A stretch of 64,000 nucleotides of DNA from Ulvibacterium marinum (GTDB lineage: Bacteria; Bacteroidota; Bacteroidia; Flavobacteriales; Flavobacteriaceae). Shown here in pieces: positions 57,871-63,129 of this stretch. The notes under the pieces were generated by a model. That model did no database searches. It saw nothing but the letters and a program-made list of their open reading frames with translations, and was not told the DNA's origin. The stretch's first letter is position 1. Every line of letters starts with the position of its first letter. The stretch covers positions 1,240,001 to 1,304,000 of the forward strand of contig NZ_RBCJ01000002.1 in the NCBI RefSeq assembly GCF_003626755.1. Direction: 5' to 3'. The position numbers and the translations under genes are program-made.

Positions 57871-57947
57871 GTAACCTATGTTACCGGATTTTCAAGCAAT
57901 AAGGTGATAAATATCATGAAAACACTTCAGTGAAGTCTATACTTTTG
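57871..57947 (+). promoter_or_regulatory. ppdK promoter with two dyads and a -7 box
   Basis: GTAACCTATGTTAC (57871-57884; GTAAC-N4-GTTAC) is followed by TGATAAATATCA (57905-57916; TGAT-N4-ATCA) and TACTTTTG (57940-57947), an exact TAnnTTTG -7 box. Dyad centres are 33 bp apart, and the second dyad is 33 bp from the -7 centre, i.e. near -40.5 as expected for a class II Crp/Fnr activator. The sqr-like promoter has the same layout. Confidence 0.6.
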
Positions 57948-57987
57948 AGTGATCCAAAATTCAGGTAAACACCTTAAAAACAATAGT

Positions 57988-60717
57988 ATGGAAATCATGG
58001 AAGAAGTTAGAAAACGGGTATTTCGATTTGGCAGCAAATCGGCCGATGGGGACAGCACAATGCGAAACTTACTTGGTGGAAAAGGCGCCAATCTAGCCGA
58101 GATGAGCGCTATCGGTATCCCCGTACCGCCAGGGTTTACCATAACCACAGAAGTTTGTACGGAATATAATAAGTTAGGAGAGGAGGCTACATTGAAACTG
58201 ATCAGGAAGGATGTTGAGCAGGCCATTGCCAATATTGAAAAGATCATGGATACCGAATTCGGTAATTCGGAAAACCCTCTTTTGATTTCCGTACGATCGG
58301 GAGCACGTGTTTCCATGCCCGGAATGATGGATACCGTTTTAAATTTAGGTCTAAATGATGATGTTGTAAAAGGCCTTGCCGCTAAGACAAAGAACGACCG
58401 ATTTGCCTGGGATTCCTACCGGAGATTTATTCAAATGTATGGAGGCGTTGTCCTCGGAATGAAACCGGAATCCAAGGACGATATCGATCCCTTTGAGGAA
58501 ATTATGGAACACCTTAAGGAAAAACGTGAAATTGAACTGGACACCCAGTTTACCGTACAAGACCTTAAGGATTTGGTCTATGATTTTAAGGATATTGTAA
58601 AGAAGCGTACCGGTCACGATTTCCCTACAGACCCATGGCAACAACTATGGGGAGCCATTATCGCGGTTTTCAATAGTTGGAACGGAGACCGCGCCCTGTA
58701 CTACCGTAAAATGCACGGCTACCCTGCGGATTGGGGAACCGCCGTAAACGTACAGGCCATGGTCTATGGTAACATGGGAGACAGTTCGGGTACCGGAGTA
58801 TGTTTTACCCGGGATGCGGGAACAGGTGAAAATGTATTTAATGGGGAATATCTGATCAACGCACAGGGCGAGGACGTGGTTGCAGGTGTACGCACCCCAC
58901 GACAAATCACCACGCTTGGATCCAAACGATGGGCGGAACTGGCCAAAATCAATGAAAACGAGCGTTTGGTTACCTATCCCTCCTTGGAGGAATTGATGCC
59001 TACCATATATAAGGAACTTCATGGGTATCAAGAAAAGCTGGAAAAGCATTATCGGGATATGCAGGACATGGAGTTTACCATTCAGGAAGGAAAACTCTGG
59101 ATACTACAGACCCGTAACGGGAAACGTACCGGAGCGGCCATGGTAAAAATCACGATGGATTTGCTCAAAGAAGGATTGATTGATGAAAAGGAGGCAATAC
59201 TCAGTATAGAGCCCACTAAATTGGACGAGTTGTTACACCCGGTCTTTGATACAAAAGCCCTAAAACGCGCACATGTCATCGCCCAAGGATTACCTGCCTC
59301 TCCAGGGGCCGCAACGGGACAGATCGTGTTTTTTGCCGACGAGGCACATAAATTCCGTCATAGCATCCTAACCCGGATAGAAACCTCTCCAGAAGATTTG
59401 GAGGGAATGAACATAGCCAAGGGTATCTTAACGGCTCGGGGCGGAATGACTTCCCATGCGGCCGTAGTCGCCAGGGGAATGGGGAAATGCTGTATCTCCG
59501 GTGCCGGTGCCTTAAAAATCAGTTACAAAAGACGGACGTTGACCGTAGACGGAAAAGTATATCATGAAGGAGATTGGATTTCCTTGAACGGTTCCACTGG
59601 AAATATTATTGAAGGTAAAGTAGCTACGAGCGAACCTGAATTAAGTGGAGAATTTGGTGAAATTATGAAATTGGCGGATAAGTATGGAACCATGGAGGTA
59701 CGTACCAATGCCGATTCTCCAAAAGATGCCAAGGTTGCCCGTAATTTTGGTGCAAAAGGTATTGGACTGGCCCGTACCGAACACATGTTCTTTGAAGTAG
59801 ACCGCATCAAGACCATGCGCGAAATGATTCTGGCCGATACGGTAAAGGGAAGAAAACATGCCTTGGAAGATTTGTTGCCCATGCAACGTAAGGACTTTGA
59901 GGGTATTTTTGAAGCCATGGACGGACATCCCGTTACCATTCGTCTTTTGGATCCCCCATTGCATGAATTTGTGCCCCATCAATTGGCCACACAAAAAGAG
60001 TTGGCCGAGGATATGCATATTTCCTTATTGGCCGTTAAGAACAAAGTAGCGGAATTACAGGAATTCAATCCTATGTTGGGCCATAGGGGATGTAGATTAG
60101 GAAATACCTATCCAGAAATAACCGAAATGCAAACCAGGGCCATCATTGAAGCAGCTCTAAATTTGAAGGAGAAGGGCATTGTCTCCAAACCTGAAATTAT
60201 GGTCCCCTTAGTTGGAACATTGAGTGAATTTATGGAACAGGAAAAGGTAATCCGGGAAACCGCCAACAAGGTATTTGAAGAATATGAGGATACCATCGAT
60301 TATTTGGTAGGTACCATGATCGAAGTGCCCCGGGCGGCATTAATGGCCGATTCCATTGCTGAACGCGCCGATTTCTTTTCCTTTGGAACAAACGATCTTA
60401 CGCAAATGGCCTTTGGCTATTCACGGGATGATGCCGGTAAATTCCTGCCCATCTATCTGGAAAAAGGAATTTTGACCGCAGATCCCTTTGAGGTTTTGGA
60501 TCAAAAAGGTGTAGGACAGTTAGTAAAAATGGGAACGGAACGCGGCAGAAGCACCAAGCCTGATTTAAAAGTAGGTATTTGTGGAGAACATGGCGGGGAG
60601 CCTAGTTCGGTAGAATTCTGTTATGCTACTGGAATGAACTATGTGAGCTGTTCTCCCTTTAGGGTTCCCATTGCACGGGTAGCAGCTGCCCAAGCAGTTT
60701 TAAAAGCAGGTAGTTGA
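57988..60717 (+). CDS. ppdK: Pyruvate, phosphate dikinase
   Basis: 909 aa from the ATG at 57988; the frame extends to a GTG at 57949 that overlaps the -7 region and so cannot be the start. Converts pyruvate, ATP and Pi to PEP, AMP and PPi, or the reverse. N-terminal ATP-grasp region starts FGSKSADGDSTMRNLLGGKGANLAEM. The phosphorylated His is H490 in GGMTSHAAVVARG. The C-terminal PEP/pyruvate barrel has ARTEHMFF, SFGTNDLTQMAFG and CGEHGGEPSSVEFC. Cytosolic; serves glycolysis/gluconeogenesis balance. Monocistronic, ended by the hairpin at 60760-60820. Confidence 0.95.
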   Translation: MEIMEEVRKRVFRFGSKSADGDSTMRNLLGGKGANLAEMSAIGIPVPPGFTITTEVCTEYNKLGEEATLKLIRKDVEQAIANIEKIMDTEFGNSENPLLISVRSGARVSMPGMMDTVLNLGLNDDVVKGLAAKTKNDRFAWDSYRRFIQMYGGVVLGMKPESKDDIDPFEEIMEHLKEKREIELDTQFTVQDLKDLVYDFKDIVKKRTGHDFPTDPWQQLWGAIIAVFNSWNGDRALYYRKMHGYPADWGTAVNVQAMVYGNMGDSSGTGVCFTRDAGTGENVFNGEYLINAQGEDVVAGVRTPRQITTLGSKRWAELAKINENERLVTYPSLEELMPTIYKELHGYQEKLEKHYRDMQDMEFTIQEGKLWILQTRNGKRTGAAMVKITMDLLKEGLIDEKEAILSIEPTKLDELLHPVFDTKALKRAHVIAQGLPASPGAATGQIVFFADEAHKFRHSILTRIETSPEDLEGMNIAKGILTARGGMTSHAAVVARGMGKCCISGAGALKISYKRRTLTVDGKVYHEGDWISLNGSTGNIIEGKVATSEPELSGEFGEIMKLADKYGTMEVRTNADSPKDAKVARNFGAKGIGLARTEHMFFEVDRIKTMREMILADTVKGRKHALEDLLPMQRKDFEGIFEAMDGHPVTIRLLDPPLHEFVPHQLATQKELAEDMHISLLAVKNKVAELQEFNPMLGHRGCRLGNTYPEITEMQTRAIIEAALNLKEKGIVSKPEIMVPLVGTLSEFMEQEKVIRETANKVFEEYEDTIDYLVGTMIEVPRAALMADSIAERADFFSFGTNDLTQMAFGYSRDDAGKFLPIYLEKGILTADPFEVLDQKGVGQLVKMGTERGRSTKPDLKVGICGEHGGEPSSVEFCYATGMNYVSCSPFRVPIARVAAAQAVLKAGS

Positions 60718-60759
60718 TCCACTTATGGATTTCATCCCCTTATAAAAAGAGGCGAAACT

Positions 60760-60820
60760 ATAGTAATTGCGAATTGTTACCTGGACCAAGTTCCGGGTAA
60801 CGGTTCGCAATACTATTTTT
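60760..60820 (+). terminator. Strong rho-independent terminator after ppdK
   Basis: A long hairpin: the left arm starts ATAGTAATTGCGAA (60760) and the right arm ends TTCGCAATACTAT (60816), with near-complete pairing over about 22 bp each, a short loop around ACCAAGTT, and a T-run at 60816-60820. Confidence 0.85.
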
Positions 60821-60931
60821 ATGTGAACCTAACCCCATCTGATTCCCTCCTAGAGTCCTTGGAACCACATTCTTTACGGCGATTTTTTAAATACAAAACA
60901 TTATAAATCAATCGATTATATTGGATTTTAT

Positions 60932-61007
60932 GTAACAATTGTTACCAAGTTTTGACCCTTCACCTGACTTTTGTCATGTCTTTTGACCCCATATCCCAAT
61001 AACTTTA
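60932..61007 (+). promoter_or_regulatory. sqr-like operon promoter with two dyads and a -7-like box
   Basis: GTAACAATTGTTAC (60932-60945) is a perfect 14-bp palindrome; TGACTTTTGTCA (60965-60976) is TGAC-N4-GTCA; TAACTTTA (61000-61007) matches the -7 box in 7 of 8 positions if the last base is free. Spacing is 32 bp between dyads and 33 bp from the second dyad to the -7 centre, as at ppdK. The rest of the 326-bp gap contains the ppdK terminator and AT-rich DNA. Confidence 0.6.
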
Positions 61008-61043
61008 TGTGTATAAAATAGAAAAGGATAAAGTTTAGAAAGC

Positions 61044-62291
61044 ATGAAACATTTGGTCATATTAGGCGCGGGAACATCAGGTACCATGATGGTAAATCAT
61101 CTCATCGGAAAGCTTCCCAAAAAAGAATGGAAAATTACCATAGTAGATCAGTATAAAACACATTACTATCAACCGGGGTTTCTGTTTCTTCCCTTCGATA
61201 TCTATACCACACAACAGGTAAAAAAAGATGGTAGAAAGTTTATTCCAAAAGAAGCGAATTATATCCAGAAAAAAATTGAGCTCATCCTGCCCAAGGAAAA
61301 TTTGGTAAAGCTTGAAGGTGGGGAGGAACTACCGTACGATATATTGATCGTCGCGACTGGTACAAATATAGCTCCTGATGAAATAGAAGGTATGGACGGC
61401 CCTGGGTGGTACAAGGACATCTTCGATTTTTATACCTATCAAGGAGCTAAGGCCCTACGCAATAAGCTACGGGAATGGGAAGGTGGAAAACTGGTAGTGC
61501 ATATTACCGAAATGCCGATTAAATGTCCCATTGCCCCTTTGGAATTTGTGTTCTTGGCCGACTCCTATTTTAAGAACAAGGGCATGCGGGACAGCGTGGA
61601 CATTACCTTCGTTACCCCTCTAAGCGGTGCTTTTACCAAACCCAAGGCCACCAAGGCCCTACACTACCTATTGGAAGAAAAGAACATTACGGAGATTACC
61701 GATTTTAATATAGAACGCGTCGATTATGAAAACAAAAAGATAGTCGATTATGCCGATACCGAGGTTGAATATGATCTGTTGGTTACCGTACCCACGAACA
61801 TGGGGGATGCACTTTTGGAACGCTCGGAAATGGGAGATGAACTGAACCATATCCCAACGAACAAGGCCACCTTACAGACCTTGGATCATGAAAACATATT
61901 TGCCATAGGCGATGCCACAAACTTACCGACCTCAAAAGCTGGATCGGTCGCTCATTTTGAAGCGGAGATACTGACGGAAAACATACTTCATTACATAAAG
62001 GGAGAACCTTTGAAAGAGGAATTTGACGGACATGCCAATTGCTTTATCGAGACCGGTAATGGCAAAGCCTTATTAATCGATTTCAACTATACCCATGAGC
62101 CGGTAGAGGGAACCTTCCCGTTTCCCGGCGTAGGCCCGCTGCAGTTATTGAAGGAAAGTAGAGCGAACCACATGGGCAAAATGGCCTTTAAATGGGTGTA
62201 CTGGAACATGTTATTGAAAGGCACACATATTCCGTTCGTATCCGCGAACATGAGTACAAAAGGCAAACATTTTGAAAAAATGGAATCTTAA
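61044..62291 (+). CDS. Sulfide:quinone oxidoreductase-like FAD flavoprotein
   Basis: 415 aa. FAD loop VILGAGTSGTMM (5-16), ATGTNIAPDEIEG (~104-116) and AIGDATNLPTSKAGS (~287-301) define the two-dinucleotide-binding flavoprotein fold. Two conserved cysteines, C161 (KCPIAPLEF) and C333 (NCFIET), match the redox pair that carries sulfane sulfur in SQRs. A Lys/hydrophobic C-terminal tail may bind the membrane. Predicted to oxidise sulfide to polysulfide or persulfide and reduce quinone. Followed by TusE- and DsrE2-type sulfur carriers, which supports a sulfur role. First gene of the operon. Confidence 0.82.
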   Translation: MKHLVILGAGTSGTMMVNHLIGKLPKKEWKITIVDQYKTHYYQPGFLFLPFDIYTTQQVKKDGRKFIPKEANYIQKKIELILPKENLVKLEGGEELPYDILIVATGTNIAPDEIEGMDGPGWYKDIFDFYTYQGAKALRNKLREWEGGKLVVHITEMPIKCPIAPLEFVFLADSYFKNKGMRDSVDITFVTPLSGAFTKPKATKALHYLLEEKNITEITDFNIERVDYENKKIVDYADTEVEYDLLVTVPTNMGDALLERSEMGDELNHIPTNKATLQTLDHENIFAIGDATNLPTSKAGSVAHFEAEILTENILHYIKGEPLKEEFDGHANCFIETGNGKALLIDFNYTHEPVEGTFPFPGVGPLQLLKESRANHMGKMAFKWVYWNMLLKGTHIPFVSANMSTKGKHFEKMES

Positions 62292-62310: not shown

Positions 62311-62619
62311 ATGGAAAAGCTAATCGCACAACGTACTATTTCAGTAAATGAAGAAGGATATTTGACCGATTTTTCGCAATGGACCAAGGAAATCGGTGAG
62401 GGAATCGCCAAAGAGCAGGATATTGCTATGACGGATAGGCACTGGGAGGTCATAGATTACATTCATGATAAATTTCAAAAGGAAGAACCCCTCTCCATAC
62501 GCGGTATCAAAAAAAGTGGGGTCATCAATATCAAGGAATTTTACAAGCTGTTTCCGGGAGGCCCATTAAAAAAAGCTACAATGATCGCCGGGATACCCAA
62601 ACCCAAAAGTTGTATTTAA
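62311..62619 (+). CDS. TusE/DsrC-family sulfur relay protein
   Basis: 102 aa from the ATG at 62311; a TTG at 62272 in the same frame overlaps the sqr-like gene and is rejected. Family signatures: GYLTDFSQWT (~16-25), LSIRGIKKSG and the C-terminal AGIPKPKSCI. Only the penultimate Cys (C101) is present; the second Cys, about 11 residues upstream in DsrC, is absent (Thr/Met there). That makes it TusE-like, a persulfide carrier rather than a trisulfide partner of DsrAB. Cytosolic. Confidence 0.85.
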   Translation: MEKLIAQRTISVNEEGYLTDFSQWTKEIGEGIAKEQDIAMTDRHWEVIDYIHDKFQKEEPLSIRGIKKSGVINIKEFYKLFPGGPLKKATMIAGIPKPKSCI

Positions 62620-62652: not shown

Positions 62653-63129
62653 ATGAGTAAGACCAAAGTACGGAAGATGATGTTCATCCTTTCCAAAGCT
62701 ACCATAGAAAATGTATATGCCGCCTTTATTATGGCCAATGGTGCCCGGATGGAAGGTATAGAGTCCGAGATATTCTTTACTTTTTTCGGATTGGAAGCCA
62801 TCCAGAAGAAAAAACTGGAACATTTGCGTGTGGCCACGGTGGGCAACCCTGCCATGCATATTCCAACCATGTTGGGTGGCCTACCGGGCGTTGAGGCACT
62901 GGCCACCAGTATGATGAAAAAGGAAATGGAAAAACTGGATATGCCACCTGTTGGTGAATTTTTGGAAATATTATCGGATTCTGGATGTAGGCTTTGGGCC
63001 TGTAAATTGGCCATGGATATGTTCCATTTAAAGGAAAAAGATTTGATCGATGAAATCGAAGGCATCCTTACCATAGGGGATTTTTACAATAGGGCCGATG
63101 CCGAAGGTACCCAGCTGCTTTTCATTTAA
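62653..63129 (+). CDS. DsrE2-type DsrE/F-like sulfur carrier
   Basis: 158 aa. Two Cys in SGCRLWACKLAMDMF (C112, C117) correspond to the conserved GC-x4-C region of DsrE2 proteins, and the GMEGIESEIFFTFFG-like strand near residues 33-46 is family typical. A mildly hydrophobic segment around 65-85 is consistent with the membrane-leaning DsrE2 group. It likely passes sulfane sulfur between the SQR-like enzyme and the TusE-like protein. Last gene of the operon. Confidence 0.82.
   Translation: MSKTKVRKMMFILSKATIENVYAAFIMANGARMEGIESEIFFTFFGLEAIQKKKLEHLRVATVGNPAMHIPTMLGGLPGVEALATSMMKKEMEKLDMPPVGEFLEILSDSGCRLWACKLAMDMFHLKEKDLIDEIEGILTIGDFYNRADAEGTQLLFI

Follow-up and report, generated by a model that had tools for sequence, protein, structure and literature searches.

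A 64,000-nucleotide stretch of the Ulvibacterium marinum genome (contig NZ_RBCJ01000002.1, positions 1,240,001 to 1,304,000 of the forward strand), here called the window, carries ppdK, the gene for pyruvate phosphate dikinase, followed by an operon headed by sqr, the gene for a type III sulfide:quinone reductase (SQR). The promoters of both share three elements in the same order, namely GTAAC-N4-GTTAC, TGAY-N4-RTCA and a TAnnTTTR box. The features of the locus, with positions counted from the first letter of the window, are:

57871..57884, + strand: upstream dyad of ppdK, GTAACCTATGTTAC; centre 57877.5, about -74.5; predicted site of a V-type Crp/Fnr sulfur regulator
57905..57916, + strand: class-II dyad of ppdK, TGATAAATATCA; centre 57910.5, about -41.5; predicted FNR-type site
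57940..57947, + strand: -7 box of ppdK, TACTTTTG; centre 57943.5; predicted start near 57952
57988..60717, + strand: ppdK, pyruvate phosphate dikinase, 909 amino acids from ATG; TIGR01828 1312.6 bits (cut-off 843.45)
60760..60816, + strand: terminator-type hairpin 3' of ppdK; -34.6 kcal/mol, z -9.54, ending in a T-rich stretch
60932..60945, + strand: upstream dyad of sqr, GTAACAATTGTTAC; centre 60938.5, about -73.5
60965..60976, + strand: class-II dyad of sqr, TGACTTTTGTCA; centre 60970.5, about -41.5
61000..61007, + strand: -7 box of sqr, TAACTTTA; centre 61003.5; predicted start near 61012
61044..62291, + strand: sqr, type III sulfide:quinone reductase, 415 amino acids; NF049943 642.3 bits (cut-off 525)
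62311..62619, + strand: dsrC/tusE-like sulfur relay protein, second gene of the sqr operon; TIGR03342 83.1 bits (cut-off 53.5)
62653..63129, + strand: dsrE-type sulfur carrier, third gene of the sqr operon; PF13686 109.1 bits (cut-off 25)

Between centres, the first dyad, the second dyad and the box are separated by 33 and 33 bp at ppdK and by 32 and 33 bp at sqr, and the positions reported for all three elements in an earlier sequence-only reading of the window hold exactly. That reading had centred the dyads at -40.5 and -73.5. With the box set at -12 to -5, as described for flavobacterial promoters in PMC9723704, the dyad centres fall at -41.5 in both promoters and at -74.5 (ppdK) and -73.5 (sqr), with predicted starts near 57952 and 61012, some 36 and 32 nt ahead of the respective ATG; the earlier figure thus stands for the first dyad of sqr and the others are 1 bp off.

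The GTAAC dyad occurs twice in the window, a number reached by none of 100 shuffles, and at the composition of the window one would expect, per genome, 0.004 dyad pairs with four spacings allowed and 4e-6 complete triples (dyad, dyad and box), against two triples found. A chance co-occurrence of short palindromes could draw on the fact that the GTAAC dyad taken alone is not over-represented in the 5.9-Mb genome (9 copies against 28 of the reversed pattern and 6.7 expected from composition). The minute expectation for the triple, which the sequence-only reading had likewise called unlikely by chance, and its recurrence in relatives and across genera leave this explanation with practically no probability. 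The element set shared by ppdK and sqr is real and represents a recurring two-regulator promoter type, and the information in the GTAAC dyad lies in its placement rather than its number.

The ppdK and sqr promoters account for two of the nine genomic GTAAC dyads. In four others (L002, L006, L007, L008) a TAnnTTTR box is centred exactly 33 bp beyond the dyad, where 0.012 such cases would be expected per genome, and the genes 3' of these sites code for a thioredoxin-family protein, a rhodanese/heavy-metal-domain/cytochrome-like cluster, a SulP permease and a metallo-beta-lactamase-rhodanese protein of the persulfide-dioxygenase type. In established Crp/Fnr biology -41.5 is the position from which class-II activators work, and these four look like simple class-II promoters for the protein that binds GTAAC. 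The last three do not fit: L001 and L009 lie within long open frames, and L003, upstream of a resolvase-like gene, has no box at 33 bp.

Extending the search to a sample of 199 Flavobacteriaceae genomes, one per genus, we recovered the GTAAC dyad followed after 22 bp by TAnnTTTR (GTAAC-II) in 138 genomes, with six matches for the reversed control. Among the listed Pfam families (25 of 48) for 75 proteins encoded 3' of such sites, 17 of which come from loci fetched around the candidate regulator described below and so bias the set toward its neighbours, we found rhodanese (13), TauE (13), the metallo-beta-lactamase fold (11), SulP (4), AhpC/TSA (3), the molybdopterin sulfite-oxidase type (2) and YeeE-type sulphur transport (2). 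We read these targets as a putative sulfur-oxidation and detoxification regulon. The commonest first gene 3' of GTAAC-II codes for a TolC-type outer membrane efflux protein (OEP; 14 of the 75, at L061, L062, L063, L066, L069, L070, L074, L083 and others), which suggests an export arm of the response.

The TGAY dyad with its box (TGAY-II) presents a different picture, with 44 matches in the window's genome, none for the control and 0.8 expected. The 30 loci inspected include downstream genes for pyruvate:ferredoxin oxidoreductase (PFOR), a 2-oxoacid:ferredoxin oxidoreductase, a ferredoxin, ccoN, hemN, nadA, a hibernation-factor-like protein and four universal stress proteins (Usp). Low-oxygen targets of this kind are typical of FNR and FixK, and judged by its gene content the TGAY-II set is an FNR-type low-oxygen regulon, in agreement with the oxygen-limited response suggested from the window alone. 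As in FNR/FixK systems, TGAY-N4-RTCA occupies class-II positions before cbb3 oxidase, hemN and PFOR genes and is accompanied by proteins with a Glu-x-x-x-Arg helix; unlike them, the promoters use the flavobacterial TAnnTTTG box, and in the FNR-like protein an Asn stands in place of Cys29 of E. coli FNR. Two clusters stand out among the matches, one of 12 sites at G000:C8:1197658-1235961 and one of eight at G000:C7:1223342-1240497 (G000 being the window's genome), each close to a Crp/Fnr protein (L010, L012) whose N-terminal domain is, by inspection, receiver-like. An exact GTAAC dyad lies upstream in only 2 of the 44 matches. The GTAAC and TGAY dyads mark two separate regulons, and two paralogs are the better reading, because the regulon contents differ and the GTAAC sites co-occur with one particular paralog.

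Four Crp/Fnr-type proteins of the window's genome score above the Pfam cut-offs (L010, L011, L012 and L013). In the first three, the recognition helix (ATExxIRxxS) retains the Glu and Arg of the FNR type. L011 (G000:C8:173977-174681; L020:3978-4682) adjoins a fixI/ccoI-type gene by inspection, has Fnr as its best NCBIfam model (106.7 bits, below the cut-off of 228), and when aligned to FNR carries cysteine at three of the four positions that we take to be the cluster-binding ones and Asn at the fourth. It is the most likely TGAY binder of the three candidates; the two further paralogs have a helix of the same type.

L013 (211 amino acids, G000:C8:628289-628924) is a member of the Crp/Fnr superfamily by both its domains, cNMP_binding (PF00027, 38.1 bits, cut-off 27.5) and HTH_Crp_2 (PF13545, 38.5 bits, cut-off 27), and its gene lies 5 kb upstream of those for the SulP and persulfide-dioxygenase-type proteins. 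The helix of CRP reads Arg180-Glu181-x-x-x-Arg185. In L013 the corresponding segment, TSRVV[IV]SR, is shared by all of the first 30 aligned homologues and has Arg at 180, Val at 181 and Arg at 185, a numbering that we transfer through the NtcA alignment on the assumption that the CRP helix is as just given. NtcA aligns to L013 across the helix with the same Arg-Val. According to PMC6316151, NtcA reads GTA-N8-TAC with a canonical position of -40.5, and PMC1274295 sets out a specificity rule for R180/E181 in Crp/Fnr proteins. From the Arg-Val helix, the NtcA code and this rule, L013 is predicted to read GTAAC; its Arg-Val-x-x-x-Arg helix would fit GTAAC rather than GTGA. Among 61 aligned homologues position 181 is Val in 55, Glu in 5 and Ala in 1, and a GTAAC dyad is found near the regulator gene in 31 of the 55 Arg-Val members, none of the five Arg-Glu members and not in the Arg-Ala member (Val vs Glu p 0.02, in a comparison that is small and not phylogenetically independent).

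Consistent with this assignment, GTAAC-II is found in 131 of the 152 family genomes with a close L013 homologue and in 7 of the other 47 (Fisher 1.7e-19, with closeness set at E<1e-55 after the data had been seen); dropping the cut-off gives 137 of 174 against 1 of 25 (p 2e-13). A phylum sample, in which 30 genomes are Flavobacteriaceae and at least some recur from the family sample, gives 26 of 137 genomes with a close homologue against 3 of 159 others (p 4e-7), and 9 of 107 against 3 of 159 outside the family (p 0.014). All these classes were counted by eye from match tables, five genomes without a regulator match being assigned by elimination, and as the genomes are related the p values overstate their independence. 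Furthermore, 57 regulator-centred loci (206 kb) contain 40 GTAAC dyads, no reversed-control dyads and two TGAY-II sites.

These counts bear on the possibility, which the sequence-only reading had left beside that of two paralogs, that a single Crp/Fnr factor acts on both dyads as tandem strong and weak sites. Both dyads are N4-spaced, of Crp/Fnr type and compatible with a merged NTRAY-N4-RTYAN consensus, which would suit one protein. Both site types, however, occupy the same class-II slot before functionally different gene sets, the GTAAC sites track one paralog, and the loci around that paralog are rich in one dyad and nearly devoid of the other. We therefore consider a single factor improbable, and the choice falls on two regulators.

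The motif raises a further alternative, since GTAACnnnnGTTAC is given in PMC1274295 as the HcpR2 motif of hcp genes in Clostridium, Bacteroides and others, HcpR2 being a Crp/Fnr branch in which Glu181 is replaced by Pro. The upstream dyad could then be an HcpR2-type site serving a nitrosative stress response and not sulfur. The likeness extends to the protein, as both have a substituted Glu181 with an identical motif. Against this, the residue is Pro in HcpR2 and Val in all 30 homologues here, and the same source, as far as it is available, names hcp as the sole target in most Bacteroides, nitrogen oxides as the context, and neither a sulfur regulon nor a pairing with FNR sites. The families listed for the 75 downstream proteins include no hybrid-cluster family (hcp itself was not searched for), and none of 58 PDB matches is named HcpR, one being called only 'Transcriptional regulator, putative'. 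The HcpR of P. gingivalis is a heme/NO sensor involving Met68, according to PMC12750200. We give an HcpR2-type role little credence. NtcA of cyanobacteria (PDB 2xgx, 8h3v) is a second parallel: it shares the Arg-Val-x-x-x-Arg helix and the GTA-N8-TAC core, and besides the canonical -40.5 it has some activating sites further upstream (-77.5). It differs in serving nitrogen/2-oxoglutarate control (PMC6316151), and L013 scores 50.6 bits on the NCBIfam NtcA model, below the cut-off of 244.95.

A search for the dyad pair beyond the window, which had been proposed from the sequence alone, recovered 15 copies at 30-33 bp in 12 of the 199 family genomes, against one for the control, and in 13 of the 15 (not in L044 and L051) TAnnTTTR stands exactly 33 bp beyond the second dyad. 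By inspection, eight pairs precede genes for thiosulfate/polysulfide-reductase-type molybdoproteins (the one such protein tested scores 340 bits on the PhsA model, below the cut-off of 694), two precede sqr, and one each precedes genes for a rhodanese, citrate synthase, Usp, YceI and ppdK.

For a wider view of sqr we took the best 80 of 406 loci from public genomes (L151-L230). Exact TGAY-II is present in 70 of the 80 promoters, and in 47 of these 70 an exact GTAAC dyad lies no more than 38 bp further upstream. Carriers of the pair at sqr include Maribacter halichondriae (L152) and Flagellimonas/Allomuricauda strains. With at most one mismatch each in dyad and box, TGAY-II is found in 74 of the 80; in three mononucleotide shuffles this looser pattern appeared in one or two of 80, and the pair in none. 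The distance from GTAAC to TGAY takes the values 22, 26, 27, 28, 31, 32, 34 and 38 bp, with clusters at 22, 27-28, 31-32 and 38 bp, that is, in steps of about half a turn. In two sqr promoters (L214 and L219, Bacteroidetes bacterium) GTAAC itself occupies the class-II slot and no TGAY-II site was found.

The gene ppdK is rare (5 of 40 searched genomes at E<1e-100, the window's own included) and adjoins sqr in 10 of the 80 sqr loci, 65 of which have enough upstream sequence to show it; one locus counted in both the ten and the eighty (L151) is almost certainly the same genome as the congener G200, with an identical promoter sequence. Exact TGAY-II is present in all ten of these ppdK promoters. 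The distance to an exact GTAAC dyad is 33 bp in L151, 48 bp in both L152 and L153, 70 bp in L178 and 118 bp in L189, and L160 has the dyad with one mismatch at 32 bp; among the ten promoters examined beside sqr it is absent from L156, L159, L179 and L187. The fixed spacing reported earlier thus holds within the two window promoters and not across species, and 33 bp as a general rule is ruled out by the sqr and ppdK spacings elsewhere. Within the genus, the window's genome and G200 carry both double promoters whereas G199 has neither, so that conservation in close relatives, on which the sequence-only reading had staked its case, is partial. At G199 ppdK, TGAY-II is kept and the GTAAC dyad has decayed; the G199 regulator shares 91% identity with L013, and intact GTAAC sites precede its SulP and persulfide-dioxygenase-type genes. 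No sqr operon occurs in the 12 kb around G199 ppdK, the rest of that genome not having been searched for sqr. The genus suggested that a GTAAC dyad at ppdK goes with a neighbouring sqr, a rule that is not general, as four of the ten ppdK promoters beside sqr lack even a near match. At ppdK, on this comparison, the predicted low-oxygen TGAY site is the constant element and the putative sulfur site is lineage-specific.

Within the window, ppdK and sqr-dsrC-dsrE are probably separate transcription units with a promoter each, because the strong terminator-type hairpin at 60760-60816 lies between them; for the same reason a single operon read from the first promoter is disfavoured. The dsrC/tusE-like and dsrE-type genes have tblastn matches at all 80 sqr loci. 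In the DsrC/TusE-like protein (62311-62619) one cysteine lies close to the C-terminus (tail ATMIAGIPKPKSCI), and Thr stands at what we take to be the position of the second DsrC cysteine. The SQR of the window matches the NCBIfam 'selenoprotein subtype' of the type III model, yet has an ordinary cysteine at 161 (KCPIAP).

Based on these observations we consider it likely that ppdK and sqr-dsrC-dsrE are each under two different Crp/Fnr activators, an FNR-type low-oxygen regulator and a V-type sulfur regulator. We infer the assignment of proteins to dyads, the signal and the combinatorial logic as follows. An FNR-type protein would bind TGAY-N4-RTCA at about -41.5 and, at low oxygen, serve as a class-II activator, and L013 would bind GTAAC-N4-GTTAC further upstream. 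At its core regulon (genes of persulfide-dioxygenase/rhodanese type, TauE, SulP, rhodanese and sulfite-oxidase type), with the dyad in the class-II slot, L013 would be the activator itself, and at sqr, ppdK and the thiosulfate/polysulfide-reductase-like gene of relatives it would act as a co-activator from upstream. The likely signal would be sulfide-derived sulfane sulfur, perceived through Cys78 and Cys84; 59 of 61 aligned homologues retain both residues, which align with cysteines of the Crp/Fnr protein 3dv8, and a thiol/persulfide switch at this pair would be plausible. The net effect would be full expression where low oxygen coincides with reactive sulfur, for example at an oxic-sulfidic interface, and synthesis of a sulfide-oxidising enzyme and of an enzyme of carbon metabolism would thus probably depend on two signals.

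The upstream dyad could also act negatively. The C-terminal domain of the RNA polymerase alpha subunit (alpha-CTD) would bind at the position upstream of a class-II site, and a regulator at -74 might block it and damp FNR-driven expression until a sulfur signal removes the regulator, an arrangement that would tolerate the variable spacing. The GTAAC dyad in the class-II slot of other promoters, among them those of sqr in L214 and L219, argues for an activator, and we regard repression as unlikely, if less so than the single-factor and HcpR2 alternatives.

Several observations weigh against control by two activators as proposed. Direct contact between two dimers is hard to reconcile above all with the spacing, which at sqr is flexible, in roughly 5-bp steps that misfit one helical face; flexible alpha-CTD contacts would permit such variation. 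Of the sqr promoters with exact TGAY-II, 23 of 70 are without an exact GTAAC dyad; at ppdK the exact dyad is missing in five of ten promoters and 48-118 bp off in four, so that co-control of ppdK appears lineage-specific at best. The nearest GTAAC site in the window's genome is 5 kb from the regulator gene, not adjacent, and an exact GTAAC-II site is missing from 21 of the 152 genomes in which a close regulator is found. Small genomes prevail among those that lack the regulator (of the 14 above 3.0 Mb with no close homologue, 3 carry a site and 11 do not), and to this is added the relatedness of the genomes noted above. The OEP genes, the commonest family 3' of GTAAC-II, are unexplained by the sulfur reading, and sulfane sulfur as the signal is drawn from the target genes and two cysteines only.

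Sulfide and persulfide regulators are known from other families, namely BigR/SqrR (ArsR family), FisR (sigma54 activators) and CstR (CsoR family). Like the system proposed here they control sqr, persulfide dioxygenase, rhodanese or TauE genes; unlike them, the protein proposed here is of Crp/Fnr type. The FNR half of the promoter is standard, and the GTAAC motif itself is already known as that of HcpR2 (PMC1274295). A literature search that covered titles and abstract openings, with subscription papers outside its scope, returned no Crp/Fnr sulfur regulator in Bacteroidota, no named regulator of flavobacterial sulfide oxidation, and nothing on this sulfur regulon, on the assignment of a Crp/Fnr protein with an NtcA-type helix, or on promoters of sulfide oxidation that combine its sites with those of FNR.

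Habitats in which oxygen meets sulfide commonly contain flavobacteria. We put forward tentatively, and with somewhat more doubt than confidence, the possibility that Flavobacteriia and some other Bacteroidota own an undescribed Crp/Fnr activator that senses sulfane sulfur and uses an NtcA-type DNA code, that would have sole command of persulfide and sulfite detoxification genes, and that would form an AND gate with FNR at the sqr, thiosulfate/polysulfide-reductase-like and ppdK promoters for life at the oxic-sulfidic interface. With a defined site, a protein and a two-input promoter the proposal is now directly testable. The Arg180/Glu181 rule for Crp/Fnr proteins would come to cover a natural Arg-Val member that is not cyanobacterial, and in a few lineages the proposal would tie the conversion between pyruvate and phosphoenolpyruvate to the oxidation of sulfide.

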